DNA of 64,000 nucleotides, taken from assembly GCA_028554795.2 (NCBI GenBank), contig CM068825.1:93792451-93856450 (forward strand). The letters run 5' to 3'. The stretch comes from Sinohyriopsis cumingii (Eukaryota; Mollusca; Bivalvia; Unionida; Unionidae). Positions 20,201 through 55,506 of this stretch are shown in pieces (the first letter of the stretch is position 1; each line of letters begins with the position of its first letter). A program made the translations under genes and the position numbers. Under the pieces are notes generated by a model, which was not told the DNA's origin, made no database searches, and saw only the letters and a program-made list of their open reading frames with translations.

Positions 20201-20201
20201 C

Positions 20202-28420: not shown

Positions 28421-28437
28421 ATGAAGAAGAACCCAAA

Positions 28438-39667: not shown

Positions 39668-39673
39668 GTGCGC
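39668..39673. repeat. left target-site duplication GTGCGC
   Basis: GTGCGC directly before the AG end of the Polinton; the identical hexamer follows the right end at 55,501-55,506. A 6-bp duplication is the known signature of Polinton/Maverick integration. Confidence 0.95.
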
Positions 39674-40000
39674 AGTAGTTAAGTGGGCCACTTTACCGTC
39701 AATGGGAATTAGCATTACAAGACCCCTTGGGCAACTCTAGCGTCAAGGGAAATTTAACATGGAGAAAAATCGTGGGCAACTCTAGGGACAATGGGAATTT
39801 AACATAGAGTTTGGGTCTGTCTAGGGACAAGGGAAATTAACATGGGGAATAGAGTTTGGGCTTTTGGGATTTTTTTTTTTTTTTTTTTAAAAGTTTTTTT
39901 AAATTTAAATTTAAATTTAAATTTAAAAAAAGGGGTAGGCAATGGAAAGGCTATCTCTTTTCGAGAAATATGGCTGGCCCTGAAAAGGGCCTTTGGGTTT
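39674..40000. repeat. left terminal inverted repeat (~327 bp)
   Basis: Matches the reverse complement of 55,178-55,500 almost base for base. Starts AGTAGTTAAGTGGGCCACTT. Internally it has three variants of a 'ctagngacaangggaa' phrase, a long T run (39,870-39,888), a palindromic (AAATTT)n stretch (39,900-39,925) and, at the inner edge, the histone-type stem-loop with its CTCGAAAAGA box. Length difference between the two repeats is only a few bases. Confidence 0.95.
39976..39991 (-). terminator. histone-type 3' stem-loop in left TIR
   Basis: On the minus strand GGCCCTTTTCAGGGCC, preceded by CCCAAA, 20 nt after the stop of the 40,011 gene. It is followed by AGCCATATTT and CTCGAAAAGAGATAG, a purine-rich box at the histone-downstream-element position. 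The signal lies wholly inside the inverted repeat. Confidence 0.88.
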
Positions 40001-40010
40001 TCTTCTGCTT

Positions 40011-40400
40011 CTAGTTTCTTCTTTTTCTCCACAAAGTTCTTATTTTATCTCCAACACTCTTTCTCTTCTTTTCTTTCTTTTTTTTCTCCTGCTCTTCTTT
40101 CTTCTTCTCTTCCTCCTCTTCTTTCTTCCTCTTCTCATTTTCTTCTTCTTTTTCAATCTTTTCGTTCCATTTGCTTATTCTTATTCTTTCCTCTTCATCC
40201 CCCTTCTCCTCCTTTATCTCTTTCATGACACCACTAATCTTGTCCTTTACCTTTTTTAAGTTATTAATTTCCATCTTTACACGATGGGGACTATAGGAAT
40301 AATGGTCTTCAACCAGTCTTATCAACATCTGCTCCATCATTCCTAAGTTGTCTAAAACGTCTTGTAATGTTTGTATTTTGTCCATTTGGTTAGAAGCCAT
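40011..40400 (-). CDS. accessory helical/coiled-coil protein 1 (129 aa)
   Basis: Starts MASNQMDKIQTLQDVLDNLG and reads toward the left end of the element. Residues 8-50 form a Leu-rich amphipathic helix pair (QTLQDVLDNLG, MLIRLVEDHY). Residues 55-115 are almost entirely Lys/Glu, a long charged coiled coil, and the tail is basic (DKIRTLWRKRRN). No membrane segment. Paralogues: 41,296, 42,177 and the orphan at 27,865. A TATAAG at 40,451-40,456 and the shared 27-bp upstream motif lie before the ATG; a histone-type stem-loop in the TIR follows the stop. Intronless, about 0.4 kb. Function unknown; its expression signals resemble those of a replication-dependent histone gene. Confidence 0.72.
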   Translation of the reverse strand: MASNQMDKIQTLQDVLDNLGMMEQMLIRLVEDHYSYSPHRVKMEINNLKKVKDKISGVMKEIKEEKGDEEERIRISKWNEKIEKEEENEKRKKEEEEEKKKEEQEKKKKEKKRKSVGDKIRTLWRKRRN

Positions 40401-40462
40401 CTTCTTTTTTATTCTTTGCAGAATGGTTTGAACGACGAATACTGTGGGTTCTTATACTTAAA

Positions 40463-40489
40463 GCGCGTACGTGAAGGAAAAACATCCCC
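40463..40489 (-). promoter_or_regulatory. shared upstream motif, copy 1
   Basis: On the minus strand GGGGGATGTTTTTCCTTCAC followed by GTACGCGC. It starts 63 nt before the ATG of the 40,011 gene. Near-identical text lies 65 and 66 nt before the ATGs of the two paralogues, so position is conserved to within 3 nt. Confidence 0.7.
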
Positions 40490-40504
40490 CTAAAACGTAA
40501 AATT

Positions 40505-40519
40505 GATCTTACCTAGATC
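40505..40519. promoter_or_regulatory. 15-bp dyad with compensatory change (a)
   Basis: GATCTTACCTAGATC: arms GATCT/AGATC around a TACCT centre. The equivalent site at 41,790 is GATGTTACCTACATC, where both arms changed together. Confidence 0.45.
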
Positions 40520-40532
40520 ATGGCCAAACAAC

Positions 40533-40559
40533 GCGCGGACGTGAAGGAAAACATCCCCT
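40533..40559 (-). promoter_or_regulatory. shared upstream motif, second (distal) copy
   Basis: Another copy of the motif (GGGGATGTTTTCCTTCACGT then CCGCGCG), about 70 bp upstream of the first, with the dyad between them. The same pair arrangement, degenerate, is seen at 41,747-41,850. Confidence 0.6.
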
Positions 40560-40579
40560 ACTTTTTCATTTCATATAAT

Positions 40580-41160
40580 AAAACCCAAACTATACTCTCC
40601 ACATACGCTAAGAAACAATAAACAAATCCATAATCTACTATCCACACAATCGTACGTGAGCGGGTACAAACACAAACACACAAACACAAACACACAAACA
40701 CATACGCTAAGAAACAATAAACAAAATCCATAATCTACTATCCTCACAATCGTACGTGAGCGCTTACAAAACCCAAACTATACTCTTCACATACGCTAAG
40801 AAACAATAAACAAATCCATAATCTACTATCCACACAATCGTACGTGAGCGGGTACAAACACAAACACACAAACACAAACACACAAACACATACGCTAAGA
40901 AACAATAAACAAATCTATAATCTACTATCCACACAATCGTACGTGAGCGGTTACAAAACCCAAACTATACTCTCCACATACGCTAAGAAACAATAAACAA
41001 AATCCATAATCTACTATCCACACAATCGTACGTGAGCGGTTATAGAACCCTAACTATACTCTTCACCTACGCTAAGAAACAATAAAGAAACCCATAATCT
41101 ACTATTCCCACAAACATACCTTAGCTCTTACAAGCACCAACACACAAACACATACCCTCA
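40580..41160. repeat. ~100-190-bp tandem repeats inside copy 2
   Basis: About six copies of 'catacgctaagaaacaataa' followed by 'acaaatccataatctactat' and 'cacaatcgtacgtgagcg' (near 40,603, 40,700, 40,790, 40,885, 40,980 and 41,070, the last imperfect), some separated by 'caaacacacaaacacaaaca' blocks. The array occupies the space between accessory genes 1 and 2. No coding potential. Confidence 0.88.
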
Positions 41161-41252
41161 CACTATCTAGGAAAAGAGTTAGTGTTTATATTCACACTAC
41201 TCTACCTACACATTGGCAAATTGATGGTTATTTCTTTTCTAGAGTATTGGGT

Positions 41253-41268
41253 AGCCCTGAAAAGGGCT
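41253..41268 (-). terminator. histone-type 3' stem-loop
   Basis: On the minus strand AGCCCTTTTCAGGGCT, followed by ACCCA (the canonical post-stem text of histone mRNAs) and CTCTAGAAAAGAAATAA. It lies 27 nt after the stop of the 41,296 gene. The outer base pair is A-T rather than G-C, with both sides changed, so the stem is preserved. Confidence 0.87.
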
Positions 41269-41295
41269 GTTTTTTGGAACTTCATGGACACCTGG

Positions 41296-41682
41296 TTAAT
41301 GGTGGCACCTTCCAGGCCTGGCGCCACATACACATCTTATCCCCCAGTTACTTTTTACTTTTTTGGGGGAGAGAGCAGAGGCAGGATATGTCGCTTCAGA
41401 ATCCCAATTTTCGCTCTCTGGGATTCTGAAATTTATTCTTCTTCTCTTCTTTTCCTTCTCCTCCTCCTCTTCTTTGTTTCTTCTCTCCTCCTCTTTGTAT
41501 CTTCTTTCCTCTTCTTCTTCTTCTTTATATCTTCTCTCCTCCTCTTCTTTTTTTCTTCTTTCCTCCTCCTCTCTTATCCTTCCCTCCTCCACAATGGCTT
41601 CCGCGGCCAGTTCATTCAACAGGTGCCTGGCATATTCCAGATGCACATGAAGTTCCAACAGTTTAGACAGTCTCGTGTTCAT
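41296..41682 (-). CDS. accessory helical/coiled-coil protein 2 (128 aa)
   Basis: Starts MNTRLSKLLELHVHLEYARH. Residues 5-30 form a Leu-rich helix pair, and residues 35-80 are Glu/Lys/Arg repeats containing RRYKEEE twice. The C-terminal 45 residues differ from the paralogues (INFRIPESENWDSEATYPAS) and carry a C-x-C-x6-C (CVCGARPGRC). It sits on a duplicated cassette: both its 3' flank (41,161-41,270) and upstream motifs are near copies of those of accessory gene 3 (42,026-42,150). The histone-type stem-loop follows the stop. Function unknown. Confidence 0.65.
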   Translation of the reverse strand: MNTRLSKLLELHVHLEYARHLLNELAAEAIVEEGRIREEEERRKKEEEERRYKEEEEEERRYKEEERRNKEEEEEKEKKRRRINFRIPESENWDSEATYPASALSPKKVKSNWGIRCVCGARPGRCHH

Positions 41683-41746
41683 TTTTGGTGTTGATCAATC
41701 AACAAGGGTAGCTAGACTGCCCAGCGAGTTTCAATTTACAGTGAAA

Positions 41747-41772
41747 GCGCCGACGTGAAGGAAAACATCCCC
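41747..41772 (-). promoter_or_regulatory. shared upstream motif, copy 2
   Basis: On the minus strand GGGGATGTTTTCCTTCACGT then CGGCGC, 65 nt before the ATG of the 41,296 gene. A degenerate second copy lies at 41,823-41,850. Confidence 0.7.
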
Positions 41773-41789
41773 CTAAAAAACATAAAATT

Positions 41790-41804
41790 GATGTTACCTA
41801 CATC
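41790..41804. promoter_or_regulatory. 15-bp dyad with compensatory change (b)
   Basis: GATGTTACCTACATC, the counterpart of 40,505-40,519, between the two upstream-motif copies. Confidence 0.45.
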
Positions 41805-42130
41805 ATGACCAAAAACAACAACGCGCGGACCTAAAAGAAACACTCACTCACTTTTTTATGCTACCCATCACTATTTTAAAATTTTTTATAAATCACTTCA
41901 TTAGACTATCCACATACGCAAAGCAATCCAATCTAACTCCAAATATACACCTCAAACACCAAAAAAAACATGATTTTAATCTACTATTCATACCAACTTA
42001 CTTAAGCACTTACTAACACACAAACACATACCCTCACATTTTTTAAAAAAGAGTTAGTGTTTATTTTCACACTACTCTACCTACACACATTGGCAAATCG
42101 ATCGTTATTTCTTTTCTAGAGTATTGGGGT

Positions 42131-42146
42131 AGCCCTGAAAAGGGCT
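42131..42146 (-). terminator. histone-type 3' stem-loop
   Basis: On the minus strand AGCCCTTTTCAGGGCT, followed by ACCCC, then CTCTAGAAAAGAAATAA. It lies 30 nt after the stop of the 42,177 gene. Confidence 0.87.
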
Positions 42147-42176
42147 GTTTTTTTTGTTTGCTATGGCATTCTTTTT

Positions 42177-42539
42177 TTAGTTTCTAAGAATGCGATGTCC
42201 TCTGAGGATAGACTTTCTGGCGATAGGTCTGCTTCTTCGGAAAGAAAAGAAGAACTCTTTGGTGTCGATACGGCAATCGACAAAGCCTCTGTCAGGTTCA
42301 GGTTGTTGCTGCTGCTGCTCTTGTTGTTGTTGTTGTTGCTGCTGTCTCTGAAGTCTGTACTTCTCTGTCCATTCTTCTTTTTCCCTGTTCATTTCTTCTC
42401 TGAAGAGCTCTTCTATCAGGTCTTCAGTGATTTTTAACATTCTTACATTCTCTATTTCTTCTGGCTTCGGTATCAGACTGTGTCTGACCCTATGCAAATT
42501 CACGTAGGCTTCGTTGAGTTTAGCTAGTTTGGAGCACAT
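42177..42539 (-). CDS. accessory helical/poly-Gln protein 3 (120 aa)
   Basis: The first ATG is at 42,539 (MCSKLAKLNEAYVNLHRVRH); upstream in-frame codons contain no ATG, and this choice puts the shared upstream motif 66 nt away, as in the paralogues. A helix pair is followed by a charged helix (DLIEELFREEMNREKEEW), a poly-Gln tract broken by one Glu, and a basic tail (RRSRPIARKSILRGHRI). The coiled-coil core aligns with accessory proteins 1 and 2 and with the 27,865 gene. The stem-loop follows the stop. Function unknown; Gln repeats suggest a flexible or self-associating region. Confidence 0.65.
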   Translation of the reverse strand: MCSKLAKLNEAYVNLHRVRHSLIPKPEEIENVRMLKITEDLIEELFREEMNREKEEWTEKYRLQRQQQQQQQQEQQQQQPEPDRGFVDCRIDTKEFFFSFRRSRPIARKSILRGHRILRN

Positions 42540-42604
42540 CTTCTTAGGAGGATGAGTCGACAATGGATGGTTAGACTGGAAACAACCCGGTTCTTAAAGT
42601 CAAA

Positions 42605-42630
42605 GCGCGGACGTGAAGGAAAACATCCCC
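42605..42630 (-). promoter_or_regulatory. shared upstream motif, copy 3
   Basis: On the minus strand GGGGATGTTTTCCTTCACGT then CCGCGC, 66 nt before the ATG at 42,539. Confidence 0.7.
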
Positions 42631-42734
42631 CACACGGTTTTTGAGTCGCAACGTTTAGTGAGTGTCATGAGAGGGATAGTAAGAAATGAAAGAGCATCAA
42701 TCCAACATTCTTATAGCTAAACAAAAGACAAAGG

Positions 42735-42930
42735 CATTTTTTTCAAAACACAACATTTTTTATTCAAAAATCACTTAACACTAAACAACAACTCTAACAT
42801 TTTTAACAATAATCCAACAATATAACATCAAACAATTTTTTTCAAAACACAACATTTTTTATTCAAAAATCACTTAACACTAAACAACAAGAACTCTAAC
42901 ATTTTTTAACAATAATCCAACACTAAAAGT
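42735..42930. repeat. ~98-bp direct duplication carrying AATAAA
   Basis: The block starting 'tttttttcaaaacacaacat' occurs twice in tandem with few changes. Read on the minus strand, each copy has AATAAA (42,759-42,764 and 42,858-42,863), downstream of the capsid gene. These are the likely poly(A) signals for the capsid-end transcripts; no histone-type stem-loop is present here. Confidence 0.8.
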
Positions 42931-42971
42931 TTCTCCACTAGGTAAAGAGGGATAACAGTCTTCCATGGTTT

Positions 42972-44285
42972 CTAGTAATCTAGGATGACTTCTCTCAAAC
43001 TGTTGATTTCTATGGTATTATCGAATTCTGCATACAGGATGACGTTCACCGTTTCATCAGGGTCTCGGTCTTTAAACTGAATTTCCACACGAATCTGGCC
43101 GGATTTTATAGGGTGGAAATGTCCCTCGTCGCTGCCTTGGTCTGGAGTGAAATCGAAAGCCCACAAAGCGTAGCCTCCTGCATAATCCTCGTACGTAATA
43201 CCGTGACTGTTATTGGTTCCTAACTGTCCGGTGGCTTCGTACAGGGACAAGTACGATCTCAAGTAATTCTTCTTGGTAAAGTCAGGTTCGAAAGGTCGGG
43301 TACACAAGGTCTTGCCATCGCGACTGACTTCGATTTTGGACACGCCAAAGTGTTGAAAGTAGAAAGGATTTTTTTCGGCAGCTCCGTTGAAGGCTGTATT
43401 CTCGACGATACCAACGATCAAACGTTTGGGTAACTGTCCTTGGAACAGATGATCTTCGATCATGGATCGCTGTCCCTTGGGAATGGTGAAGGTTTTCACT
43501 TCCACGCGTCGTATGGGATACTTGGCGGTCGTTCTACTCAACGTCTGACTGATGTCGTTTCCCACTTTAGGTAACACTTCCACACGGCGTACGTAGAGTC
43601 TGGCTTCTAGGATTTTGGTTTTGTAACCGTCACTATCAGCCATCAAATGGAAAGCGGCACTGCTACGATTCAGTCTCAGGCGGACATCCACCCCGTTCAG
43701 CAAATACTTTTCTTGCAACCACATGTCCAAATGCAAACGATCCATCAGTTCTAAACTTGTGTCGGCTCCCGTGATTCTCTTTCTTCGTTCTACAAATCCA
43801 TCATTGTTGTCTTTCTTTTCATCAGTTTCCAATATTTCAAACTTGGTAGGTTCGTCAGCTTCCCATACCACACAGGCATTGAGATGAGTGTTCTTGGCAT
43901 CTATTCCGTACGTCAAGAGATTTTCCAGGTAGGCACGATAAGGGTAAGTATCCATGCTGCTACTGACCAGTTTGTTATTCAAGTACAAGTCCACTCCACT
44001 GAACAAGGAATGCATGAAATTGTTGACGGGAGCCACTGCTTCGTCGTCTATAGCACCTCCAGTTTTATCTAGAATTTTGACTTTCAGGTACAAGTAACTG
44101 CTATTCAGATCGATGTAATCTTCGGGCTGTCCTTTGATTTCAAACTCGATGGGAGCGGAATCGGTCAGTGAGGAGACGGGGTGAAATTCCACCCACTGGG
44201 ATTCTTGCATCGTCATCATCGTGGGGGGCATGGCAAACAGATCCAGTTCGGTCTTGGAACAAGCGCAAGATTCTCGGTGCATCAT
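42972..44285 (-). CDS. major capsid-like protein (F54H12.2 type, 437 aa)
   Basis: Starts MMHRESCACSKTELDLFAMP. Characteristic text: QWVEFHPVSSLTDSAPIEFE (about 30-50), EDYIDLNSSYLYLKVKI (56-72), VNNFMHSLFSGVDLYLNNKL (87-106), TYPYRAYLENLLTYG (113-127), DRLHLDMWLQEKYLLNGVDV (180-200) and YALWAFDFTPDQGSDEGHF (360-380). This is the family annotated in invertebrate genomes as 'F54H12.2-like'. Its place beside an F54H12.3-type integrase and its beta-rich make-up fit a double-jelly-roll capsid subunit, but the fold is inferred. Complete and undamaged here. The last gene of the minus-strand capsid block; it starts 19 nt after the stop of the upstream gene and has no obvious TATA box of its own. Confidence 0.85.
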   Translation of the reverse strand: MMHRESCACSKTELDLFAMPPTMMTMQESQWVEFHPVSSLTDSAPIEFEIKGQPEDYIDLNSSYLYLKVKILDKTGGAIDDEAVAPVNNFMHSLFSGVDLYLNNKLVSSSMDTYPYRAYLENLLTYGIDAKNTHLNACVVWEADEPTKFEILETDEKKDNNDGFVERRKRITGADTSLELMDRLHLDMWLQEKYLLNGVDVRLRLNRSSAAFHLMADSDGYKTKILEARLYVRRVEVLPKVGNDISQTLSRTTAKYPIRRVEVKTFTIPKGQRSMIEDHLFQGQLPKRLIVGIVENTAFNGAAEKNPFYFQHFGVSKIEVSRDGKTLCTRPFEPDFTKKNYLRSYLSLYEATGQLGTNNSHGITYEDYAGGYALWAFDFTPDQGSDEGHFHPIKSGQIRVEIQFKDRDPDETVNVILYAEFDNTIEINSLREVILDY

Positions 44286-44304
44286 TTTTTTGTCTCTTTT
44301 TTTC

Positions 44305-44721
44305 TCAATAATCGAAAACGTCTAAGTCTCGAACGGTTCTTCTTTTCTTGGCCTTTCTCGCTTGAAGTCTGGTGAAAGGGTGTTTTCTTCGTCGTCTCTT
44401 TCTGCCTTGTCCTTGCTGAATGCCTGACTCGGTAGCGTGCAGGGCATTTATAGGTGTTTCTCGTTGGCCTAAAATGTCTTTGCCCGTTTGCAGCAAGACA
44501 TTTTTGCCTGCCCTCATGAAGGCTTCTTTAGGGTTTTGTTTGTCGATGATGACATTTTGGAGAAATTCTTTGCCTTGCGTCAGTGCCGCATCTTTCAAGG
44601 CGTGCAATCCGCGTGTCACCATCGGTTTCAACACTGGGGCCACCGAACGAAAGGCCGATTTTAACATGTCTCCTAAACCGTGTCCTCGCTGTCGAGCAAC
44701 CCCTCGGTACACTGGATACAT
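44305..44721 (-). CDS. small amphipathic, basic virion-type protein (138 aa)
   Basis: Starts MYPVYRGVARQRGHGLGDML. An amphipathic, hydrophobic-face helix (MLKSAFRSVAPVLKPMV) is followed by Ala/Lys helices and a strongly basic tail (GRKRRRRKHPF, ARKAKKRRT). Gly-Leu-Gly near the N terminus followed by an amphipathic helix recalls the membrane-active or core proteins of adenoviruses (pVI/pX class), and proteins like this are regular neighbours of F54H12.2-type capsid genes. Likely inside the particle, in contact with DNA or membrane. The similarity is by composition and position, not alignment. Confidence 0.62.
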   Translation of the reverse strand: MYPVYRGVARQRGHGLGDMLKSAFRSVAPVLKPMVTRGLHALKDAALTQGKEFLQNVIIDKQNPKEAFMRAGKNVLLQTGKDILGQRETPINALHATESGIQQGQGRKRRRRKHPFTRLQARKAKKRRTVRDLDVFDY

Positions 44722-44728
44722 GACTTAC

Positions 44729-45651
44729 TTACGAGTCGTGAGAGAACCGTTTTCGAAAATGGAGTTTCACCGTGACTTTTCCTTTGGTGAATGGACTATT
44801 TTGTCCCAGATCTCCTTTTATAGCAATGTTGACCGTGTCCAAATACGACTTGCTGACAGGCAAATAGTGAGGATGGACAAATTCGCGGTGGACGTGGTAA
44901 GTGTTTCCACCTTCCTCGTCAGCGTTCGTGACAGAATCTACTTTGAAAGGAATGACACGCAGTAACGGTACGGAGGTGTGTCCCACCACGTTGTACTCCA
45001 CCACATCGGAATACACGAACATCAAATTCAGTCCTTGGTTCAGTTCTACCGGGGCACGAAATAACTTGCTAAAAGACTCGTTGTCGTAAACGATGGGTAA
45101 TTCGTTTTTCTTGAGCATGGTCTTTCTCATGTCCATGTCTCCGCCCAACATGTCATACAATTCAGGACAAAAAAAATGGACAGGATTTTACTCCGTTCAA
45201 ATTTCATCAAGAAGCGACGAGCTGCTTTGTGGTACTCCATGGTGACACTTTTGTTGACATGCTCCAAAGCTTTCAGAAACACGACATTAAACCTGGAGGT
45301 TATGGTGCTGACCAAATGTTGACCACTAAAATAATAGCCTGGGGGAATGAACAAGTGATAGGTGGTGTACTTTTGTGTACGGGTTTTCTTGTCATATTTG
45401 ACATTGCTATCCATCCACTGTTGCATTTGCTCGTCATGAACTTCCACATCAAAAAAATTTTGATTGGGAAGGACATTGAGGACTTGGGTCGGGTGAATCA
45501 TTTCTACTAAAGCCACTTCCCAATGGGCTTCGTGATCTAACTGGATGGCTTGAGGTAATTTGGCCGTGTAACAGCACAACGTGTTCTTGGGAAACACCTC
45601 CATGGAACTGTCACTGGGTAAAGTTAAGTAAAATTGGTTTTGGTGACTCAT
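44729..45651 (-). pseudogene. minor capsid (penton-like) protein, frame broken at an 8-base run
   Basis: Two overlapping reading frames of one gene. The upstream part (from ATG 45,651) starts MSHQNQFYLTLPSDSSMEVF and reads HWEVALVEMIHPTQVLNVLP and YHLFIPPGYYFSG. The downstream part (stop at 44,729) reads LYDMLGGDMDM, ELNQGLNLMFVYSDVVEYNV and FREFVHPHYLPVSKSYLDT-like text. The second part lacks its own ATG at the start, and family proteins continue directly across the junction. The break falls in an A8 run (T8 on the coding strand, 45,169-45,176); a one-base change there puts both parts in one frame. It could be a real indel, an assembly error or -1 ribosomal slippage (T TTT TTT). Penton assignment is by family position and is tentative. 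Confidence 0.7.
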
Positions 45652-46064
45652 AATTCCAGAGTTCTGTGGCTGTCCGAGGGGTTACTGGACGTCAGAGGCG
45701 TGTCTCCGTCTAAAATGGGGTTCTGGTTGTGATTGAAGTGGTGACTGGCACTGGCACTGGACACAAGGTTCCCGGGGTTCCCGTTCGAGGTGAATTTCAG
45801 GGAGGGATTAGGAAGCAGGTAACCGATGCAACTGCTCAATAAAATGGTCCACAATTGTTTGTCTCCTTGATGCAAACTCAAATTGGCGATGGCTGCCCCG
45901 ATGACACAATACACCACGAAGATTTGGCAGAAAAAGACGATTTGCGTTTTAGGCACACGTTCTCCACACCACACCCACAAGGGTTGTTTTTGTAAATCTT
46001 GCACAGAAGAACTAGGGGAAGGAGGAGTGGTCGACGTAGCTGCGTCTGCAGTGTGAAAGGGCAT
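45648..46064 (-). CDS. single-span membrane protein (138 aa)
   Basis: ATG at 46,064 gives MPFHTADAATSTTPPSPSSS; an upstream in-frame GTG is not a plausible eukaryotic start. One hydrophobic stretch (IVFFCQIFVVYCVIGAAIA, about 44-62) is preceded by VPKTQ and followed by LWTILLSSCIGYLLPNPSLK, a second semi-hydrophobic segment. The tail is Ser/Asn-rich. This layout (VPKxQIVFxCQ...LLSSxIGYLLPNP) recurs beside F54H12.2-type capsid genes, from memory. The stop overlaps the start of the minor capsid gene in an ATGA arrangement, and the ATG lies 6 nt after the integrase stop. Likely a virion or host-membrane component. Confidence 0.72.
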   Translation of the reverse strand: MPFHTADAATSTTPPSPSSSVQDLQKQPLWVWCGERVPKTQIVFFCQIFVVYCVIGAAIANLSLHQGDKQLWTILLSSCIGYLLPNPSLKFTSNGNPGNLVSSASASHHFNHNQNPILDGDTPLTSSNPSDSHRTLEL

Positions 46065-46069
46065 GATGG

Positions 46070-47179
46070 TCACTTCTTTTTATAGTCGATGACTTGCGAA
46101 GCGTCGATCCAAGAATCAAAACTGGGTGGATATCCTTTCCAACGTACTTTGACTTCTTTGACACGTCGTTTGCCCACTTTACGGGTTCTGCGTTCGAGAA
46201 TGCTTTCGATGTCGTACATGTCGTCTTCTTTTTTGGTGACACGTTGTAACTCGGGCAAATAAAACGTTCCTTTGAGCACTTCTCCGTTCATGTCTTCCAA
46301 TTTATAGACGGCAGGATGACGGCCATGCACTCGTCCAGTGACGCGAAACAATTCGGTCGTCCAGTTAGGTAAGTAACCTTTGTCGAAAGTGCGTTTGGTT
46401 TTGCCAATGCGCACCCAATCTCCTACGGCCAACATTCCACTTTTCTCGGGGACAGCCCTCGTCGGGGACGTACCAAACAGACGCTCAAACACCAACACTT
46501 CGTTGTCGGTAGTCACGTCTTGCGGGGCACGTCCGATGCTTCGATGGTAAGATTGGTTGTACGCTTGCACCAGGTGCGGTAAGAGGTCGATGTACTTCAG
46601 AGTGTGGTGATGCGTAAAATATTTCCACATGCGTTCTTTCAAAGTGCGTTGAAAACGTTCCACGATGCTGGCTTTGGTTTCGGGATTCTCGGTGGTAAAA
46701 AAATGAATGTCACGTTTCTTTAATTCTTTTTGGAAAGCTTGGTTCAGAAATTCGGTGCCTTTGTCCGTTTGCCATCGAAGAGGGTGACGACCGCTTTGTT
46801 TCAACACCCGATGCAGGGCTCGCACTAACTCGCTGCTCGATTTGGAAGTCAAGGGCACGACCCAGGCAAATTTGGAAAAGACGTCGATGACACAAAACAA
46901 ATATTTGTAGCCACGATTGTAGCTGGTCAAATGAGAGACATCGGCTAAATCGGCTTGCCATTGATGATCGATGCCTTCCACTCGGGTGCGACTTCTGGCA
47001 AACTTGCGTCGAATGGGTTTGTGTAAAGTGTAGGTAGCTTGTTCTTGTAACCATCGTTGCACTTGAGGTAAACGGAGACTTTTCAGTCGCGTTTTGGCAG
47101 CACGATACAATTTTTGAACTCCTGCGTAACCTGCAGGATGGGAGGAATCGTAGTAAATGCTGGCTAAGACTTTTTCCAT
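46070..47179 (-). CDS. retroviral-type integrase with chromodomain (F54H12.3 type, 369 aa)
   Basis: Starts MEKVLASIYYDSSHPAGYAG. The DDE core is readable: first Asp in DHQWQADLADVSHL, second in LRWQTDKGTEFLNQAF, Glu in KASIVERFQRTLKERMW. An SH3-like DNA-binding segment (VGDWVRIGKTKRTFDKGYLP) follows, then a C-terminal chromodomain (YDIESILERR, VRWKGYPPSFDSWIDASQV) that may steer integration to chromatin. Length and all three catalytic residues are normal. Expected role: strand transfer of the element ends, giving the 6-bp duplication seen here. Frame intact. Upstream gene stop at 47,201, downstream gene ATG at 46,064: a tightly packed block. Confidence 0.93.
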   Translation of the reverse strand: MEKVLASIYYDSSHPAGYAGVQKLYRAAKTRLKSLRLPQVQRWLQEQATYTLHKPIRRKFARSRTRVEGIDHQWQADLADVSHLTSYNRGYKYLFCVIDVFSKFAWVVPLTSKSSSELVRALHRVLKQSGRHPLRWQTDKGTEFLNQAFQKELKKRDIHFFTTENPETKASIVERFQRTLKERMWKYFTHHHTLKYIDLLPHLVQAYNQSYHRSIGRAPQDVTTDNEVLVFERLFGTSPTRAVPEKSGMLAVGDWVRIGKTKRTFDKGYLPNWTTELFRVTGRVHGRHPAVYKLEDMNGEVLKGTFYLPELQRVTKKEDDMYDIESILERRTRKVGKRRVKEVKVRWKGYPPSFDSWIDASQVIDYKKK

Positions 47180-47200
47180 TTTTTTGTGTTGGTTGGTGTG

Positions 47201-47845: not shown

Positions 47846-47894
47846 GGGGTTGTCAGGGGTCGATTCTGAGATCTTGGGACTTCCGAAGGCCTTT

Positions 47895-48280: not shown

Positions 48281-48336
48281 CTTTGAGTCTTCAGGAGCAC
48301 CGAAAAAACACTGATACCCGACTTGGTCACAGGCCT

Positions 48337-48348
48337 TTTTTATACTGG
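48337..48348 (-). promoter_or_regulatory. TATA box of core-type protein B
   Basis: Minus-strand TATAAAAAAGGCC, about 65 nt before the ATG at 48,280, within the end of the neighbouring gene. Confidence 0.65.
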
Positions 48349-48837: not shown

Positions 48838-49171
48838 TAGGATCCCATCTTAAGAGTGAGCGAATGATGACCCCTCCTAGAGTACCGATCCCTCCAGGTT
48901 TCAAAATGATTTGTTTTTTGGTTTGAGTGTCGATGCGGGGATCGGCCAGTTGGACCAAAGCGACTTTGTTTCGATCGAAAAAGAGTTTGGTTTGATGAGG
49001 AATCTGAATGATTCCTTGGAGTAATTGACGTGCCGTCACCGTGAACCATCGTAAGACTTCTTTGAGACTAGCTTCTAAGACACGAGCTCGTGTTTGTGGA
49101 TCTTTTTCTCGACTGATGCCATACAAGGCACGAATCAATTTGACGGGAAGATGCGACTGAAGGGACGTCAT
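48815..49171 (-). CDS. core-type protein A (118 aa)
   Basis: ATG at 49,171 (MTSLQSHLPVKLIRALYGIS); longer frames upstream lack an ATG, and a TATA box at 49,212-49,219 fits this start. Body: RARVLEASLKEVLRWF, TARQLLQGIIQIP, and QIILKPGGIGTLGGVIIRSL. The helix-helix-hydrophobic-GG layout parallels core-type protein B. The same gene, broken, is at 21,351 in copy 1 with an identical first ten residues. Probably a small structural protein of the particle. Confidence 0.68.
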   Translation of the reverse strand: MTSLQSHLPVKLIRALYGISREKDPQTRARVLEASLKEVLRWFTVTARQLLQGIIQIPHQTKLFFDRNKVALVQLADPRIDTQTKKQIILKPGGIGTLGGVIIRSLLRWDPNAPKVIP

Positions 49172-49211
49172 GTTCGCACTGAGAGTGAGACAGACGAAAA
49201 AGGGTCTGAGG

Positions 49212-49219
49212 TTTTTATA
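49212..49219 (-). promoter_or_regulatory. TATA box of core-type protein A
   Basis: Minus-strand CTATAAAAACC; the ATG at 49,171 is about 41 nt downstream. Confidence 0.65.
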
Positions 49220-49284
49220 GATTTTTTTTATGGGGAGTGAAATGAAGTCGAGGACGGAGACGTGTACAGGACAGGCCCTCCGTC

Positions 49285-49626
49285 TTAGAACCAGTGGTGA
49301 AACAAGTGGGTACGAAATCGCAAATCCTCGGGAGTCGTAGGTTTCAAATCGACGAGTAAATAGGCGTGTGGAGTTTGAGTGGCATCGTCGTACGCCTGAG
49401 TCAGCCAAGGCGTTCCTAACTGTTTGGCTAAGACTTGCACTTGCGATTTATCTCGAGGGCTTTTAAACAAGACCACGTAATGCGCATTGAGACTGATGGT
49501 GCGATGGGCTTTACTTTGTTGAAACAAATTTTGGGTGATGTAAACGACACTGGCATTACGGTGATGCCCTTTGCGCGTGAACCACAGTTTAATTTCTTCT
49601 TCGTCTTCTCCTAACATGAATCGGGT
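49285..49626 (-). pseudogene. packaging ATPase, C-terminal fragment fused to PolB
   Basis: The last 113 residues of the FtsK/HerA-type packaging ATPase: FMLGEDEEEIKLWFTRKGHH, SVVYITQNLFQQSKAHRTIS, LNAHYVVLFKSPRDKSQVQV, LAKQLGTPWLTQAYDDATQT and HAYLLVDLKPTTPEDLRFRT. It is in frame with the PolB segment before it. The N-terminal part with the P-loop and Walker B is missing because a deletion (about 2.9 kb relative to copy 1) joins PolB motif C to this point. The fragment cannot be an active ATPase. Confidence 0.85.
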
Positions 49627-52600
49627 GATGATGTAAATGCAACTGTCGGTGTCAAAGTACAGGACGCGTTCCCCTAACAGTTCTAAAGCTTCGTACAATT
49701 TTAAGCGAGCATGAGCTGTCACGTAAGCTGCAATGATGACATTTCCAAAAGGGTCGTCTTGTACAAAGTCCAGATCTTCTTCGTAATTGACCAAGATCAA
49801 ATCCTCTCGAACGACGTCCACGTGTTTCATGTATTTGGTTTTGTCGTGAATCATCTGGAAGTAGCGGGAAGGTTCTGTCAAATATTCCGTCTTGGGTAAA
49901 CACGGTCGTTGTGCCATTTTACCCCACAAGCAATTTAACATCACTTTGGCAAACGATCGCCTGCCTTCGTTTTTTTTCGATGTGGTCTAAAGAGATGCCT
50001 TCTTGTGCGTAGTATTTCTCTTTGAATTGTATTTGGTCTTCGGGAGTGTGACACCAGGAAGGATAGCCGCTGGCTTCTTGTTTCAGTTTCAAAAAGGCAT
50101 CCACGTAGTCGGCGAAAATGCCTTTCTGAGTAGGGTCACCCTTGTGGTACTGTTGTGTCTTGGGAAAGTGGCAAATTTCGTACGCTTCTAACAGTTGGTA
50201 TCCCATGTCCAGAGCTTTGAACAATTCCACGCTGACCCAGGTTCCCGTCAAGGCACGTTCTTCCTGGCTGTGATGGCAAGGTTGGTCCTGGTTGCACGTT
50301 TCGGGACAAGTACGGCACAATGGAAACATCAGTTTGCCTTGACAATGGTGAGGTAAGACGGGATGGTATAGGTTCGTGGGAGGCAAAACTTTACACTTGA
50401 TCAAGCCTTCGTATTGTCGAATGTTTTTCAGGTCGATGTGTTCCGTGAACAATTGCGGGTGCCCTACAGGAAAGCGACAATATTTGCACACGTAGGGATA
50501 CAGCGAACACACGTCCAAGTATTTGATTTCTTCTCCTTTCTCTTCGTCGGCTTGGTACAGCAAACAGGTGGCATTGGTCCTTCCTCCGTACAAACTATTC
50601 CTCGGGTTCAGCGGGTCCATGAACTGGTAACTTTCCACGAGGCGTTTAAACTCGGGATCGGTTTTCAAACGGTGATCGTACTCGTGTTCCCACATTTCCA
50701 CCACTTGGTATCCTTGCTGTTCTAACTTTAGGCGTCGCTGACAAGTGTCCTGGTACAAGTCTTCCATGGTTCGTTGCAAAAACTGATTTTTAGTGTCACG
50801 GTCAGGGTAACAGACGGGACATCCGTGACATAAGCAACCGTTAAACTCGTACACGATCTTGGGGTTTTCTAAGTCCCAGCCATCTACCGAATACGTTCCG
50901 ATGGTCTTTTCGCCTCCTCCGTTGCGGGCATGCTGAATCCATTTGTCTTCCTTGTCGCACAAGTAATGTAACCAACGTAGGGCTTTGACCGAGTATTGAC
51001 GCTTGACATAGTGGGTCGTTTGAGGACTGATGACAGCCACGGTGTTTTCAGGCATGAATCGTTGGCGGTACACTAAGGAACACGCTTTGGCAATGGTGCA
51101 AGCTTCTTTCAAAGGATCGACCCCTCCGTGTTCCATGAACAGTTCTCGAAATTTTCCACAGCAACGTCGTAAAATGTCCACGTCGGAACGACAATACTTT
51201 AACATTTCTTCCTGAAAGTCGAAGGGGTCAGAGGCGTGAGCTTGGTGCCAAGCGTAGAAAGCTTCTCGTTGTTCGGTACGCATGTTGTCGGGGTCGTAAT
51301 AGTGAGCCTCAGGTAAATGGGGTAGAACGTCATGTTGATTGGCTTCCGTATTGAAAAAGTGTGGAAAGTACCCTTTAGCCATTTCTGTCATTCCAAACGT
51401 TTTAGGCATTTGGCTCAAAGGCATGGCCAAATAGCTCATCGAATCTTTAAACTGTACTTGTCCCACTTGCATAAAAATGATTTTGGCTCCGTTCAAAATC
51501 ACTTTAGGACGTTCGGTGCCATGTTCCGTATAGTACCTCAAAAGAAACTGTCCATCGTATCCGGAGAAATTGTGAGCCAGCACTGTGGCATGACGATGAC
51601 AATCTCCGTAACGTTCGATGTCCTCTTGGCTCCACGTCTTGTCGATGGGGTCTAAGACCCATTGGGCAAAATCGGCTAACGTGTTTGGTCCCCGAAAGAT
51701 TTTTTCACGCCCTCCGGGAATCTTGCTGCAGTGAGGGCAATGACTGAAGATATGTTCTTGAATGCACTTCTCGCACGCTCGATGAGCCACGCAGAAATTA
51801 GGAATGTGAATGCCAGTCTCTTGCATGCATTCGAAATCGAAAAAGATGAAATTGCCTTTCTTCTTGTGACCGTCCTCTTTCTCTGGTGGGGGTTGGTATT
51901 TTTGCACGTAGCATTGGTGTTCCAAGTCCACGATGTGGTGACAAATGTGACATTTTTTCTTTCCTCGACATACGTGTGCCTTGGCATTGTTGGTACGTAT
52001 GCCTTGTCTACACGTAGGGCACAATCTCAGGAGTTGACAAGCACATTTCTTCTGTGAACCTTGTGTTTTCAAATGTTGTTGGTAACAGGTAGGGCTGACA
52101 AACGTGCGCAGACAAGTCGAACAAGGCACTGGTTCTTCGCTCAGACAGGGTGGAGAGGCCAAACATCCTGGGCATTTCCATCCACAATGCTTGTGTTGCT
52201 CTCGATTATTATAACCATAGTCACATTTCTCACAGTAATATCTGTATCCCAGGAATCCGGTGATACTGGTAATGGTATCGAAATGGTCATCGTGATGATA
52301 AACATGAATGTATTTTCCGTCCTTAAAGTCTTGGCCTCGAAACAACAGAGGCCCGCGCATTTCTTGAGGGTGCACTTTCAAGGTGTAGCGTGGAGCTAGG
52401 GCATCTTGCAATTTTTGCATCTCAGGAATGCCACAGGGTGTGTCTTTGGACAGGCCAGCTTGTTGCAACAGGAGTTCTGCTTCATTTCGTTGTTTGGCTC
52501 GGTCGGATTGTTGAATAGTGTTCCAGGTTCTTTTCCATTCTACCGTGTCGTTCTTGTTGGCATAGGTTCGTCCCACCACGATGGCACGGGCTAAACACAT

Positions 52601-53250
52601 CTGGTCTTGAGGGTTGTTAATTCGGACGAGACTCTTTTTGGTGTTGCGAAGGTCGTCACCAATAACATCTTTTTGCGTCCTGTCCCTTGAGGAGGAGAGA
52701 CGTGGGCCATTTTCAGTGTGGCTTTACCATCGGTGATGTCAAACTGGTCATTAGATTGTTGTACGTGTTGTATCTTGTCCATGACTTTGGAAGGGGTCAG
52801 TTCTGCGGGTCTGCTAAACTCGATCCAAACAAGGGATTTCAAACCGTCGTGATCTATGGATAGTGTCAAGCGATCGTCTTCTTTGGCTTGACATTGTCGC
52901 TTGAGTGCGGTGAGCAAAGAATCCCACATCTCGGTGATAAACCCTTCTGCTTTCTCCAAGGGTACGTCGGACTTGAAATCTTTAAACTTCACCGTGTAGG
53001 TGTAAGCCGTGGTTCTAAATTTTCTAGAGGAGCGCTTTTCCGTCTCTCGAATGGAATAGTACTTTTCAGGGTTGACTAAGGGTGGTGAACTTGGTTTAGA
53101 GGGTTCGGATTCTGGTTCACTCATGTCCTCTTCAAAATCACTGGCATGAATTTGTGCCAAGATTTCAGCCCTGGTACGAGGCGATAGATCACGTTTCTGC
53201 CTCTTACTTTCTTCTTCTTCTTTCTTCTCGAATGAATGGGATCGTTTCAT
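49627..53250 (-). pseudogene. protein-primed family-B DNA polymerase (PolB), two frameshifts and lost C terminus
   Basis: The replication polymerase of the element. ATG 53,250 starts MKRSHSFEKKEEEESKRQKR (basic, nuclear-type N terminus). The first 193 codons end at a frame break in a T5 run (52,670-52,674). A long frame then carries Cys/His clusters, Exo I (FIFFDFECMQ), Exo II (LAHNFSGYDGQFLLRYY), Exo III (KYCRSDVDILRR) and motif A (YLDVCSLYPYVCKY). A second break in a T8 run (49,970-49,977) precedes motif B (VMLNCLWGKM) and motif C (YFDTDSCIYI). The segment after motif C is deleted. Judged against copy 1, the intact protein would be about 1,330 residues. A TATA box is at 53,299-53,304; the gene is divergent from the zinc-knuckle gene. 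Confidence 0.9.
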
Positions 53251-53298
53251 CTTGAGTGCAAAACGTCAAATGACTCAAGTTTAAACACCATAGACTAA

Positions 53299-53304
53299 TT
53301 TATA
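53299..53304 (-). promoter_or_regulatory. TATA box of PolB
   Basis: Minus-strand CTATAAATTAG, about 50 nt before the PolB ATG. Confidence 0.6.
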
Positions 53305-53321
53305 GTCTTGGCAAACCAGCG

Positions 53322-53331
53322 TATATAAAAA
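53322..53331 (+). promoter_or_regulatory. TATA box of the zinc-knuckle gene
   Basis: TATATAAAAAGGG, 55-64 nt before ATG 53,386. Together with the PolB TATA box it makes a compact 135-bp divergent promoter. Confidence 0.75.
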
Positions 53332-53385
53332 GGGTGTGTGTCTTGTCCTTTCACTATTCATTTCACTCTCAAGCTGAGCACAACG

Positions 53386-53856
53386 ATGGAAGAGACTACC
53401 CAGATGGAACGTTTCGTCAGAGCTTTGCGAGGGGTCATTAGAAAATTTTCTTCAGACCAGCCGACAGACTACTCTCCTTCCTTTCGAGATAAAAGTCAAG
53501 ATACTTGCTATATCTGTCAGAAGAAAGGGCATTGGTCTTCAGAGTGTCCAGACCGTGAAAAAAGAACAAAAACAGGGGCTAAAAAAGACAAAAGTCAAGA
53601 TACCTGTTATTATTGTAAAGAAAAAGGACATTGGTCTCCAGATTGCCCAAAAAAGAAACAAGAGGAGTCAGAAGAAAAGAAGGATTCTTCAGAAGAAGAG
53701 AGGGATTCTTCGGAAGAAGAGAGGGATTCTTCAGAGGAAGAAGAGGAAGAAAGAAGACAATTCTATTTAAAAGAGGCAAAGAAACAGGAGAAGAAAAGAA
53801 GAAGGGAAGAAAATGAGGAAAAAACGGTGAAGAAATTCAAAAAACAGAGAGACTAA
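53386..53856 (+). CDS. double CCHC zinc-knuckle protein (156 aa)
   Basis: ATG 53,386 (MEETTQMERFVRALRGVIRK) is preferred because the TATA box at 53,322 puts the transcript start downstream of the earlier non-ATG codons. Two CCHC knuckles, CYICQKKGHWSSECP and CYYCKEKGHWSPDCP, each follow an identical DKSQDT, so one is a duplicate of the other. An acidic Ser/Glu repeat follows (DSSEEER three times), then a Lys/Arg/Glu helix and a basic tail (VKKFKKQRD). CCHC knuckles bind single-stranded nucleic acid. Divergent from PolB, it may act in replication or RNA handling. No gag, reverse transcriptase or LTR is near. Confidence 0.78.
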   Translation: MEETTQMERFVRALRGVIRKFSSDQPTDYSPSFRDKSQDTCYICQKKGHWSSECPDREKRTKTGAKKDKSQDTCYYCKEKGHWSPDCPKKKQEESEEKKDSSEEERDSSEEERDSSEEEEEERRQFYLKEAKKQEKKRRREENEEKTVKKFKKQRD

Positions 53857-54103
53857 ATAATGAAAAAGAAGAAGTGTACGAACTTTTTAAAGTGTTCTGT
53901 GGTGAATTGTGAATTGGATTGTAAAAAAATGGATAAAAGAATACATGAATGATATAAGGTAAGTGTCTTTGAGTTTTGATTTTAAAATAAGAAGCTACAC
54001 TCACGCACTCATACACAGACACGTACTATAAGGGTAAAATGGGTGGGTTTATTTTTGAGTTATTGGCAAATTGAAATTGTATTTCTTTTCGAGAAATGTG
54101 GCT
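53857..54103. other. convergent intergenic spacer
   Basis: Spacer between the zinc-knuckle gene (+) and the stem-loop of the 54,146 gene (-). No histone-type stem-loop is seen on the + strand for the zinc-knuckle gene, and no clear AATAAA. Confidence 0.5.
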
Positions 54104-54119
54104 GGCCCTGAAAAGGGCC
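54104..54119 (-). terminator. histone-type 3' stem-loop
   Basis: On the minus strand GGCCCTTTTCAGGGCC, 26 nt after the stop of the 54,146 gene, followed by AGCCACATTT and CTCGAAAAGAAATAC. Confidence 0.88.
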
Positions 54120-54145
54120 TTTTTCTTTATGGTGTAGGAGTGAGT

Positions 54146-54706
54146 TTAACCAATCAACTTTAACTGCCTTAAACCTTTGCCACGGCCAAGGCCTACTTCT
54201 GATGATTGGGTTGAAATCACTAAGGGTGGTACGACAGGCTTAGTCACAGGGTTGGCGTGTTTAGCTCGGGAAGGTCGTATTCTCTTCGGTCGTGATAAAG
54301 AAGTCTGATACATTTGTTTCAGACTTCTTAACTCCGCTAAAATGTCCAACAGTACCGTAGCCGTTTGATTTTCACCCTCTTGTTTCTTTGCTGCTACTTC
54401 TTCTTGCTGTTGTTGCTGTTGTTTTTTTCTTACCTCTTCTTGTTGCTGTTGCTGTTGCTGTAGGAGAAAAGCTTGTTCCGCTTCCTTTTGTCGTTGCATA
54501 AATTTCTCCAATTCTTCTTTCTGTCTCTGTCTAAAATTCTCCACTTGCGGTAATGAAGAAGGTAACGAAGGTTCCGGAACAAATTCTTGCGAGGTAAGAA
54601 AATCCACAAAATCCCAATGTACCTCTTCTGAAAGTAAGTCCGGGTTCCCTTGGGCAGTCTCCCATGCTGGTGCACCCCAATGGATCGTTTTCTGAGTTTC
54701 CGTCAT
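54146..54706 (-). CDS. poly-Gln coiled-coil accessory protein (186 aa)
   Basis: Starts MTETQKTIHWGAPAWETAQG. Residues about 25-50 are acidic/hydrophobic (EEVHWDFVDFLTSQEFVPEP). A long helix with two poly-Gln blocks (about 85-108) and VLLDILAELRSLKQMY follow, then a basic, Pro-rich tail (RPKRIRPSRAKHANP). It shares the helix/poly-Gln style of accessory protein 3 but has a different N terminus. A TATA box (54,755-54,760) lies upstream next to a CACGTGACGTCAC site; the histone-type stem-loop follows the stop. Function unknown. Confidence 0.68.
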   Translation of the reverse strand: MTETQKTIHWGAPAWETAQGNPDLLSEEVHWDFVDFLTSQEFVPEPSLPSSLPQVENFRQRQKEELEKFMQRQKEAEQAFLLQQQQQQQEEVRKKQQQQQQEEVAAKKQEGENQTATVLLDILAELRSLKQMYQTSLSRPKRIRPSRAKHANPVTKPVVPPLVISTQSSEVGLGRGKGLRQLKLIG

Positions 54707-54925
54707 GTTGAATCACTGTCGCATAGATTGACTGCACACAAGCGCTAACGAATCTATATAGACCACGTGACGTCACAGACTGCTCTCTTCGGATTGGATG
54801 CGAGTTAACTGAATTTTGTAACGCGTGTTCGGATTGGTGAATGAATTCAATCCGTTTCAATCCTTCCTGTACCTATAAATAAGCGCAGTTCACTGCATTG
54901 ATTCACCTATTCTCGTCGCTTCAAG
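54707..54925. promoter_or_regulatory. divergent promoter of the right-end accessory genes
   Basis: 219 bp between two divergent ATGs. Minus-strand TATATAG at 54,754-54,760; plus-strand TATAAATA at 54,874-54,881, 45-52 nt before ATG 54,926. Between them are CACGTGACGTCAC (E-box fused to a CRE-like TGACGTCA) and repeated 'ggattgg' words (54,792 and 54,832; ATTGG is an inverted CCAAT box), the latter a regular feature of histone promoters. Confidence 0.6.
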
Positions 54926-55162
54926 ATGTGGACCACAGTTGAGTCATCCACCCTTGTGTCTTCCATGATGTTTAGGACGGACATGCTCATGTATGTCAGG
55001 TCCAAGTGGACTGTTGTTGATAGGACAGATACTAGTCAATGGATGAGGAGAGTTTACATAGAAAGACAAGGATGTCTCAAGAGGGTACTTGTGTATGGAC
55101 CGGCAGTTAGAAGGAGTTTAAGAAGAAGAAGAAGAAGATGTGACAGATGCCATCTATGTTAA
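54926..55162 (+). CDS. small Arg-rich accessory protein (78 aa)
   Basis: Starts MWTTVESSTLVSSMMFRTDM and ends with RRSLRRRRRRCDRCHLC, an Arg6 block joined to a C-x2-C-x2-C. Reads outward to the right end; the stop at 55,162 is followed after 24 nt by the stem-loop inside the right TIR. Clear TATAAATA box. It could be a small DNA-binding or nuclear protein, but the lack of relatives elsewhere in the window means coding status rests on the promoter and 3' signal. Confidence 0.58.
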   Translation: MWTTVESSTLVSSMMFRTDMLMYVRSKWTVVDRTDTSQWMRRVYIERQGCLKRVLVYGPAVRRSLRRRRRRCDRCHLC

Positions 55163-55177
55163 TATTAATATTAACAT

Positions 55178-55500
55178 AAACCCAAAGGCCCTTTTCAGGG
55201 CCAGCCATATTTCTCGAAAAGAGATAGCCTTTCCATTGCCTACCCCTTTTTTTAAATTTAAATTTAAATTTAAATTTAAAAAAACTTTAAAAAAAAAAAA
55301 AAAATCCCAAAAGCCCAAACTCTATTCCCCATGTTAATTTCCCTTGTCCCTAGACAGACCCAAACTCTGTGTTAAATTCCCATTGTCCCTAGAGTTGCCC
55401 ACGATTTTTCTCCATGTTAAATTTCCCTTGACGCTAGAGTTGCCCAAGGGGTCTTGTAATGCTAATTCCCATTGACGGTAAAGTGGCCCACTTAACTACT
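55178..55500. repeat. right terminal inverted repeat (~323 bp)
   Basis: Reverse complement of 39,674-40,000 with only small length differences, mainly in the A/T runs. Ends CTTAACTACT at 55,500. Confidence 0.95.
55187..55202 (+). terminator. histone-type 3' stem-loop in right TIR
   Basis: GGCCCTTTTCAGGGCC preceded by CCCAAA, 24 nt after the stop of the 54,926 gene. It is followed by AGCCATATTT and CTCGAAAAGAGATAG. Confidence 0.88.
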
Positions 55501-55506
55501 GTGCGC
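55501..55506. repeat. right target-site duplication GTGCGC
   Basis: Identical to 39,668-39,673. Confidence 0.95.

Follow-up and report, generated by a model that had tools for sequence, protein, structure and literature searches.

Why would small genes in a virus-like element of a bivalve end in the stem-loop of replication-dependent histone genes, given that histone-type 3′ ends are considered almost private to histone genes? We analyzed a window of 64,000 nucleotides of Sinohyriopsis cumingii DNA (the whole stretch studied), which holds a decayed copy of the element (copy 1) and a second copy (copy 2). The reading we favor, with a probability of roughly 0.83, is that the small terminal genes of a Polinton are dressed as replication-dependent histone genes and, as judged from sequence, use host 3′ processing.

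The element is a Polinton (Maverick), coding for PolB and an integrase between terminal inverted repeats (TIRs) of ~330 bp that are 99% alike; because the TIRs are so similar, copy 2 is probably young. Its repeats and genes are as follows:

39670..40000, left TIR, 99% complementary to the right, holding hairpin 39976
40011..40400, minus strand, small gene, 129 aa, E/K-rich and coiled-coil-like by eye, stem-loop end
41296..41682, minus strand, small gene, 128 aa, stem-loop end
42177..42539, minus strand, small gene, 120 aa, stem-loop end
42972..44285, minus strand, capsid-like protein, homologues found, no stem-loop, AATAAA 108 nt past the stop
46070..47179, minus strand, central block, retroviral-type integrase with chromodomain (PF00665, PF00385), no stem-loop
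49919..52600, minus strand, central block, DNA polymerase B (PF03175, 8e-38), no stem-loop
54146..54706, minus strand, small Q-rich gene, 186 aa, stem-loop end
54926..55162, plus strand, small gene, 78 aa, arginine-rich end, stem-loop end
55178..55504, right TIR, 99% complementary to the left, holding hairpin 55187

The product of 54926..55162 has two homologues with 77–81% identity. The protein at 42972..44285 has no Pfam match and is related to oyster 'F54H12.2-like' proteins; we take it to be capsid-like from the usual Polinton gene order. Named relatives of this protein, and of host histone H1, are mostly from molluscs.

A pattern search for RGCCCTTTTCAGGGCY hairpins finds six exact matches in the window, five in copy 2 and one in copy 1, and the preliminary description had placed the five correctly, all on the coding strand. 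The hairpins and the purine boxes that follow them, with Rfam Histone3 (RF00032) scores, are:

28438..28453, plus strand, stem-loop of decayed copy 1, 17 nt past the stop of a 78-aa frame, 38.5 bits
28464..28473, plus strand, CTCGAAAAAA, a changed form of the purine box, in copy 1
39956..39965, minus strand, HDE-like purine box CTCGAAAAGA
39976..39991, minus strand, histone-type 3′ stem-loop of the terminal left gene, exact, 35.6 bits
41233..41242, minus strand, purine box CTAGAAAAGA, with the letters of host H1, H2B, H3, and H4
41253..41268, minus strand, histone-type 3′ stem-loop with A-T closing pair, exact, 31.0 bits
42110..42119, minus strand, purine box CTAGAAAAGA
42131..42146, minus strand, histone-type 3′ stem-loop with A-T closing pair, exact, 29.3 bits
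54084..54093, minus strand, purine box CTCGAAAAGA
54104..54119, minus strand, histone-type 3′ stem-loop, exact, 34.4 bits
55187..55202, plus strand, TIR counterpart of 39976, a histone-type 3′ stem-loop ending the terminal right gene, 35.6 bits
55213..55222, plus strand, purine box CTCGAAAAGA

Allowing up to 3 mismatches gives eight matches in the window, the six exact ones and two with 3 mismatches, against a mean of 0.67 (largest 4) in 100 shuffles; a generic histone-hairpin scan also returns six, against an average of 0.08 and never more than 2 in 5,499 first-order Markov sequences. A chance origin of the window hairpins is excluded. Each has a 6-bp stem and a 4-nt loop with conserved sequence, and four of the six exceed the Rfam cut-off of 34 bits, with 41253 and 42131 falling below it; genuine histone sites also miss this cut-off, as in an animal histone cluster where one of four is over and three score 29.8–33.4 bits. 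Hairpins 39976 and 55187 are one sequence present twice, since both lie inside the TIRs, and 41253 and 42131 are probably duplicates because their downstream DNA is near-identical; copy 2 therefore offers about three independent contexts.

The hairpins lie close behind the genes, at 19 nt (40011), 27 nt (41296), 30 nt (42177), 26 nt (54146), and 24 nt (54926) past the stops, so that the proximity first proposed stands and its range of 20–30 nt becomes 19–30 nt. As had also been reported, a CT(C/A)GAAAAGA box follows each copy 2 hairpin (5/5), 10 nt downstream, or 11 nt at 42131. The claim that stem variants keep their pairing comes down to one covarying base pair, fixed by gene class, and an A-C mismatch closes the stem at three of the 100 host places listed.

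What the sequence shows directly is the presence of these signals, their resemblance to those of host histone genes, and, in copy 2, their restriction to small terminal genes. By our own grouping into terminal and central-block genes, the stem-loop is present in five of six small terminal genes versus none of 13 central-block genes (Fisher p 0.0005). The preliminary description was right that the proteins are not histones, the five genes having no Pfam histone match at E 0.01. It had also called the class mostly TATA-driven, which proves not to be special to these genes: TATA-like boxes are also found at 53386, 52591, 48815, and 47987, and 41296 lacks one.

The comparison with host histone 3′ ends that the preliminary description had proposed bears out the resemblance in hairpin class, spacing, and purine box. 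In two stretches of the host histone repeat, covering all five histone types, H1, H2A, H2B, H3, and H4 carry a hairpin of the same class 27–38 nt past the stop, which in H2B is identical to that of the element; the box, 10–11 nt past the hairpin, reads CTAGAAAAGA, or CCCGAAAAGG in H2A. The 3′ flanks of the element match a host histone flank at 24–27 of 40 positions (shuffled means 15.8–17.8), and at each of the six window sites none of 300 shuffles does as well.

This likeness bears on two other explanations. The hairpins could act as DNA or as roadblocks, in replication, packaging, or plain transcription termination, rather than as SLBP/U7 signals. Two of them do lie inside the terminal repeats; however, three lie outside, all five in copy 2 are oriented with their genes, and both the spacer and the purine box are like those of host histone genes; we regard such a role as very improbable. 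Alternatively, 3′ ends and promoters captured from host histone genes may be passengers, with transcripts that are polyadenylated or silent in practice. The close likeness of the modules to those of this very host, the youth of copy 2 with its 99% TIRs, and AATAAA downstream of two of the five stops, at 92 nt (54146) and 111 nt (42177), speak for this; because AATAAA follows their stops, polyadenylation is possible for these two genes. We nonetheless consider passenger status unlikely, on evidence from further copies and from a distant Polinton given below.

Searches for the host factors yielded little. The Rfam U7 search of the host gave no match, with 65 of 801,960 candidates scored and likewise none in the control, and a U7 pattern occurred at 17 places versus 26 for the reversed control; two of the 17 score weakly in Rfam, at 21.0 and 19.5 bits against a cut-off of 34, and none is convincing. 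Pairing of the boxes with a vertebrate U7 5′ end is no better than shuffles at any of five boxes. An SLBP family search of the host was empty, as was its control, which makes the result uninformative.

The resemblance extends upstream, a further point of support that is absent from the preliminary description. A promoter motif of the three left-hand genes is common to host H2B and H1, and a second motif matches DNA upstream of H4:

40530..40555, minus strand, histone-type promoter motif GATGTTTTCCTTCACGTCCGCGCGTT
41744..41769, minus strand, histone-type promoter motif (H2B/H1)
41820..41840, minus strand, TTTCTTTTAGGTCCGCGCGTT, matching the DNA ahead of host H4 at 21/21 positions
42602..42627, minus strand, histone-type promoter motif (H2B/H1)

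Over 26 positions the first motif has 3 mismatches upstream of H2B (−107) and 4 upstream of H1 (−105), and a reversed copy upstream of H2A has 6; across 100 Markov versions of the histone cluster, the closest match has 7. After removal of low-complexity matches, some of which the flank comparison shows, a short-word comparison with the histone cluster places these modules in the terminal parts of the element; the central block of 10 kb has a single shared 16-mer, and 15 kb of flanking window DNA has nothing in common with the cluster. The spacing of the motif counts against a shared programme, being ~85–89 nt upstream in two gene types and mostly ~153–155 nt in the terminal gene, versus 105–107 nt in H1 and H2B.

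Should the motif belong to host promoters in general, the likeness to histone genes would be limited to the 3′ end. Right-hand genes do have the stem-loop without the motif: among further copies, in a search over 260 nt tolerating up to 3 mismatches, the motif occurs in 24 of 28 left-type genes and none of 23 right-type genes. Its positions in H1 and H2B, the weaker reversed copy at H2A, the perfect second motif shared with H4, and the clean window flank argue the other way, and we regard a general promoter element as rather unlikely.

The host genome seems to carry a very large number of copies of the element. The hairpin occurs at 56,197 places in its 2.9 Gb, against none for the reversed control. 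Most copies read were picked for carrying an exact hairpin, and among them a frame of at least 50 aa ends 7–50 nt upstream in 67 of 80 distinct sites, and the purine box lies at +10 in 63 of 74 distinct exact sites, at +11 in six, and is not found in five. Sorting by gene class took in 65 sites with a frame of at least 50 aa and full flanks. The five gene classes preserve the spacing, the box, and the distance to the stop, also where the terminal genes are unlike, which counts against passenger status to the extent that hairpin-chosen sites allow. In an alignment of 16 right ends, 13 keep an intact partner hairpin, with a mean of 45% for 16-column windows; 214 of 1,373 windows are conserved as well as the hairpin, and conservation among copies is thus just modestly above background. 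These 16 segments were kept from 65 anchors, of which 43 showed no start of a right-end gene in the reading tried (many lie on the other strand or at the other end) and the remainder were duplicates.

The suggestion that other Polintons carry the signal holds for one of six contigs (L124), where the arrangement follows a zinc-finger gene; the other five, judged mostly partial, have no such 3′ end. The capsid-like protein of that contig is 32% identical to that of the element, and its hairpin loop differs; the arrangement is thus shared by a distant Polinton even though the loop is not, which also disfavors passenger status. Its flank does not resemble the histone flanks of this host beyond shuffles (17/300 as good). 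PolB and capsid searches of a viral contig collection found no relative. There, a loose hairpin pattern matched 120 loci, at least 80 with one match each, which we provisionally took as chance; a stricter pattern matched one contig (L127), whose neighboring frames look phage-like by eye, also taken as chance. The literature covered yielded no description of histone-type gene ends or promoter motifs in Polinton/Maverick (adintovirus-like) elements; the papers listed include two that name both adintoviruses and histones, PMC12721341 and PMC11071296.

With five histone-type gene ends and three genes with shared promoter DNA, the element therefore appears to use the host DNA-replication programme for part of its genes. 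Pre-mRNAs of the small terminal genes would carry the host histone 3′ signal (stem-loop, 10–11-nt spacer, and CTMGAAAAGA box), SLBP would bind the stem-loop, U7 snRNP would recognize the purine box, and CPSF73 would cut a few nucleotides past the stem, so that the mRNAs are short and lack poly(A). In addition, promoter motifs common to host histone genes lie upstream of the three left genes. The preliminary proposal that histone 3′ processing is borrowed is thus supported at the sequence level, and we infer use of the signals by host machinery, including SLBP and U7, along with non-polyadenylated transcripts and S-phase coupling. With less confidence, we suggest that S-phase expression makes host nucleotides and replication factors available to a DNA-copying element, and that a compact 3′ end may fit the TIRs and halt transcription before host DNA. 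That the full histone programme, promoter and 3′ end, has been seized for non-histone genes, linking them with S phase and perhaps with the histone locus body, and recurs in distant Polintons, we hold at slightly better than even odds. If the favored reading is true, a mobile element is a natural experiment on what the histone 3′ signal suffices for, the timing of Polinton expression in animal cells has a concrete answer, and poly(A)-less RNA is a handle for transcripts that standard poly(A) libraries miss.

Metazoan replication-dependent histone genes resemble those of the element in stem, loop class, 5′ AA flank, 3′ ACC-type flank, 10–11-nt spacer, purine box, short stop distance, and small single-frame genes; the modules of the host histone repeat are nearly identical. 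Unlike histone genes, the five encode proteins that are non-histone in Pfam and belong to a mobile virus-like element. Human H2AC18 is a dual-ended histone gene with a poly(A) signal near its histone signal, and by this likeness either type of 3′ end might form at 42131 and 54104, although the H2AC18 poly(A) signal overlaps the HDE (PMC9756948) and the AATAAA of the element lies further downstream. With Polinton/Maverick (adintovirus-like) elements the element shares PolB, the chromodomain integrase, TIRs, and a capsid-like protein, and it differs from their descriptions in the literature covered in having histone-type gene ends and promoter motifs.

The element (copy 2) is a Polinton (Maverick) bounded by near-identical terminal inverted repeats, and its central block, on the minus strand, is flanked on both sides by small genes. 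Pfam identifies two of the block's products, a DNA polymerase of type B and an integrase with a chromodomain. The block's protein at 42972-44285, which we take to be capsid-like, has 799 relatives at E <= 0.001, and among the best 120 of these the top animal-named matches are oyster 'F54H12.2-like' proteins at 47%. A direct-repeat array (91 and 189 nt) with CGTACGTGAGCG lies between the two leftmost small genes, at 40511-41163. Elsewhere, 5654-6340 holds a host-DNA tandem array of 56-bp period, and 60024-60120 has a MIR5649 match on both strands, below cut-off and probably a repeat. The following features are referred to below:

39670-40000 and 55178-55504: terminal inverted repeats, 99% alike, bounding the element
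53386-53856: zinc-knuckle gene, the sole small flanking gene with neither a stem-loop nor AATAAA/ATTAAA within 150 nt
~17.0-28.5 kb (17000-28500): decayed, reversed relative of the element (copy 1), keeping one hairpin, at 28438
39936-39947, 41213-41224, 54064-54075 and 55231-55242: third conserved block, approximately CAATTTGCCA or CATTGCC, 3' of the purine box

The preliminary description placed five hairpins after stop codons, each with a purine box about 10 nt on, and both hold: the hairpin RGCCCTTTTCAGGGCY terminates five small genes of the element, 19-30 nt past the stop, and CTMGAAAAGA follows each hairpin by 10-11 nt. Among the element genes compared, the hairpin is absent from the zinc-knuckle gene at 53386 and from all 13 central-block genes. 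The window has far more hairpins than simulation predicts, whether exact copies of the motif or members of the wider generic class are counted, and the Rfam histone 3' stem-loop model (Histone3) scores four of the six window sites over its cut-off and two under. The six are not all independent: two are terminal-repeat copies and two have common downstream DNA. The third conserved block lies ~44-55 nt from the hairpin start.

The proposed comparison with host histone 3' ends revealed the same hairpin class and similar spacing. A host histone H4 query gave 114 matches, mostly ~8.27 kb apart, and two of the histone-repeat stretches (L213 and L214) contain H1, H2A, H2B, H3, and H4, all of which terminate in the element's hairpin class, with all 12 sites exceeding the Histone3 cut-off. 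The H2B hairpin, GGCCCTTTTCAGGGCC, is identical to that of the element; H3 and H4 have GGCCCTTTTTAGGGCC, H2A has GGCCCTTTTAAGGGCC, and H1 has GGTCCTTTTCAGGACC. The hairpin lies 27-38 nt past the stop in the host histones versus 19-30 nt in the element, and 10-11 nt past it lies CTAGAAAAGA (H1, H2B, H3, and H4) or CCCGAAAAGG (H2A). H2A and H2B in L213 also have a looser counterpart of the third conserved block. Element and host histone flanks are alike at 24-27 of 40 positions, with none of 300 shuffles as good at any of the six window sites.

Similarity to the histone genes extends to some promoters. The three left genes have GATGTTTTCCTTCACGTCCGCGC in common, with at most one mismatch, and this motif recurs among the host histone genes. 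It starts at -107 of H2B, where 3 of its 26 positions differ, and at -105 of H1, where 4 differ; H2A has a weaker copy upstream, reversed and with 6 differences. In 100 Markov versions of the histone cluster, no match has fewer than 7 mismatches. A second motif, identical at 21 of 21 positions, lies upstream of host H4 and of element gene 41296. In a short-word comparison of the element with the histone cluster (E <= 0.05, low-complexity matches screened out), the hairpin modules and the promoter motifs just described account for every match except one central-block 16-mer and one copy-1 15-mer; 15 kb of window flank gave no match to the cluster. In further element copies GATGTTTTCCTTCACGTCCGCGC is at ~-85 to -89, or mostly at ~-155 in the terminal gene; of the left-type genes, 24 of 28 have it, versus none of 23 right-type genes, and the right genes and histones therefore have only the 3' end in common.

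The exact hairpin occurs 56,197 times in the 2.9-Gb host genome (27,794 + 28,403), and a reversed-pattern control not once. The 100 places listed all fall within 3.1 Mb at the start of a single chromosome, mostly in a repeated order fitting element ends. We infer that the majority of the hairpins sit in elements, and the family looks extremely abundant; at ~5 hairpins per element, the count suggests thousands of copies. Reading 50 loci and the window gave 80 distinct sites, of which 72 match the hairpin exactly and 8 nearly; at 67 of the 80, a reading frame of 50 aa or longer stops 7-50 nt before the hairpin. The terminal left gene occurs as unlike alleles, each with the signal by which the sites were selected. 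The partner hairpin is intact in 13 of 16 cases versus a mean of 45% for equal-length windows, 214 of 1,373 of which do as well, favoring conservation only moderately.

The search of other Polintons gave a divided answer. Six contigs within prokaryote genome bins encode relatives; we read these animal-type Polintons, and an animal histone cluster (L129) in one of the bacterial reference bins, as contamination by animal DNA. The arrangement recurs in one contig (L124), where a zinc-finger frame of 89 aa is followed, 28 nt past its stop, by a hairpin that Histone3 scores at 35.8 bits, with CAAAAAAGAGAT downstream; the loop differs from the element's, and 17 of 300 shuffles of the L124 flank match host histone flanks as closely as the flank itself does. 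L124 and the element have best-segment identities of 32% (capsid-like protein), 35% (integrase), and 36% (polymerase). The other five contigs have no Histone3 match at E <= 1, and in our judgment most of them are missing the terminal region. As a positive control, the histone cluster (H3, H2B, and H2A frames), from the same bin as contig L125, yields four matches, one over cut-off; of 14 control genomes, nine matched at a loose limit and none over cut-off. Among the matches listed from full-text searches, which take in little of the subscription literature, we found no report that genes of Polintons, Mavericks, adintoviruses, or other mobile elements end in the manner of histone genes.

Transcripts of the five small genes with hairpins are most likely processed by the host histone machinery, which would cut them to leave ends without poly(A). 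S-phase expression of the hairpin-bearing genes would be expected by inference, and more strongly so because the promoter motif matches host histone genes. AATAAA lies 92 and 111 nt past two of the small-gene stops, and a second, polyadenylated transcript form is therefore possible; some histone genes have such a form. In histone pre-mRNA, according to PMC12774660, PMC1924863, and PMC9756948, SLBP binds the stem-loop, U7 pairs with the downstream element, and CPSF73 cleaves, leaving ends three to six nucleotides past the hairpin.
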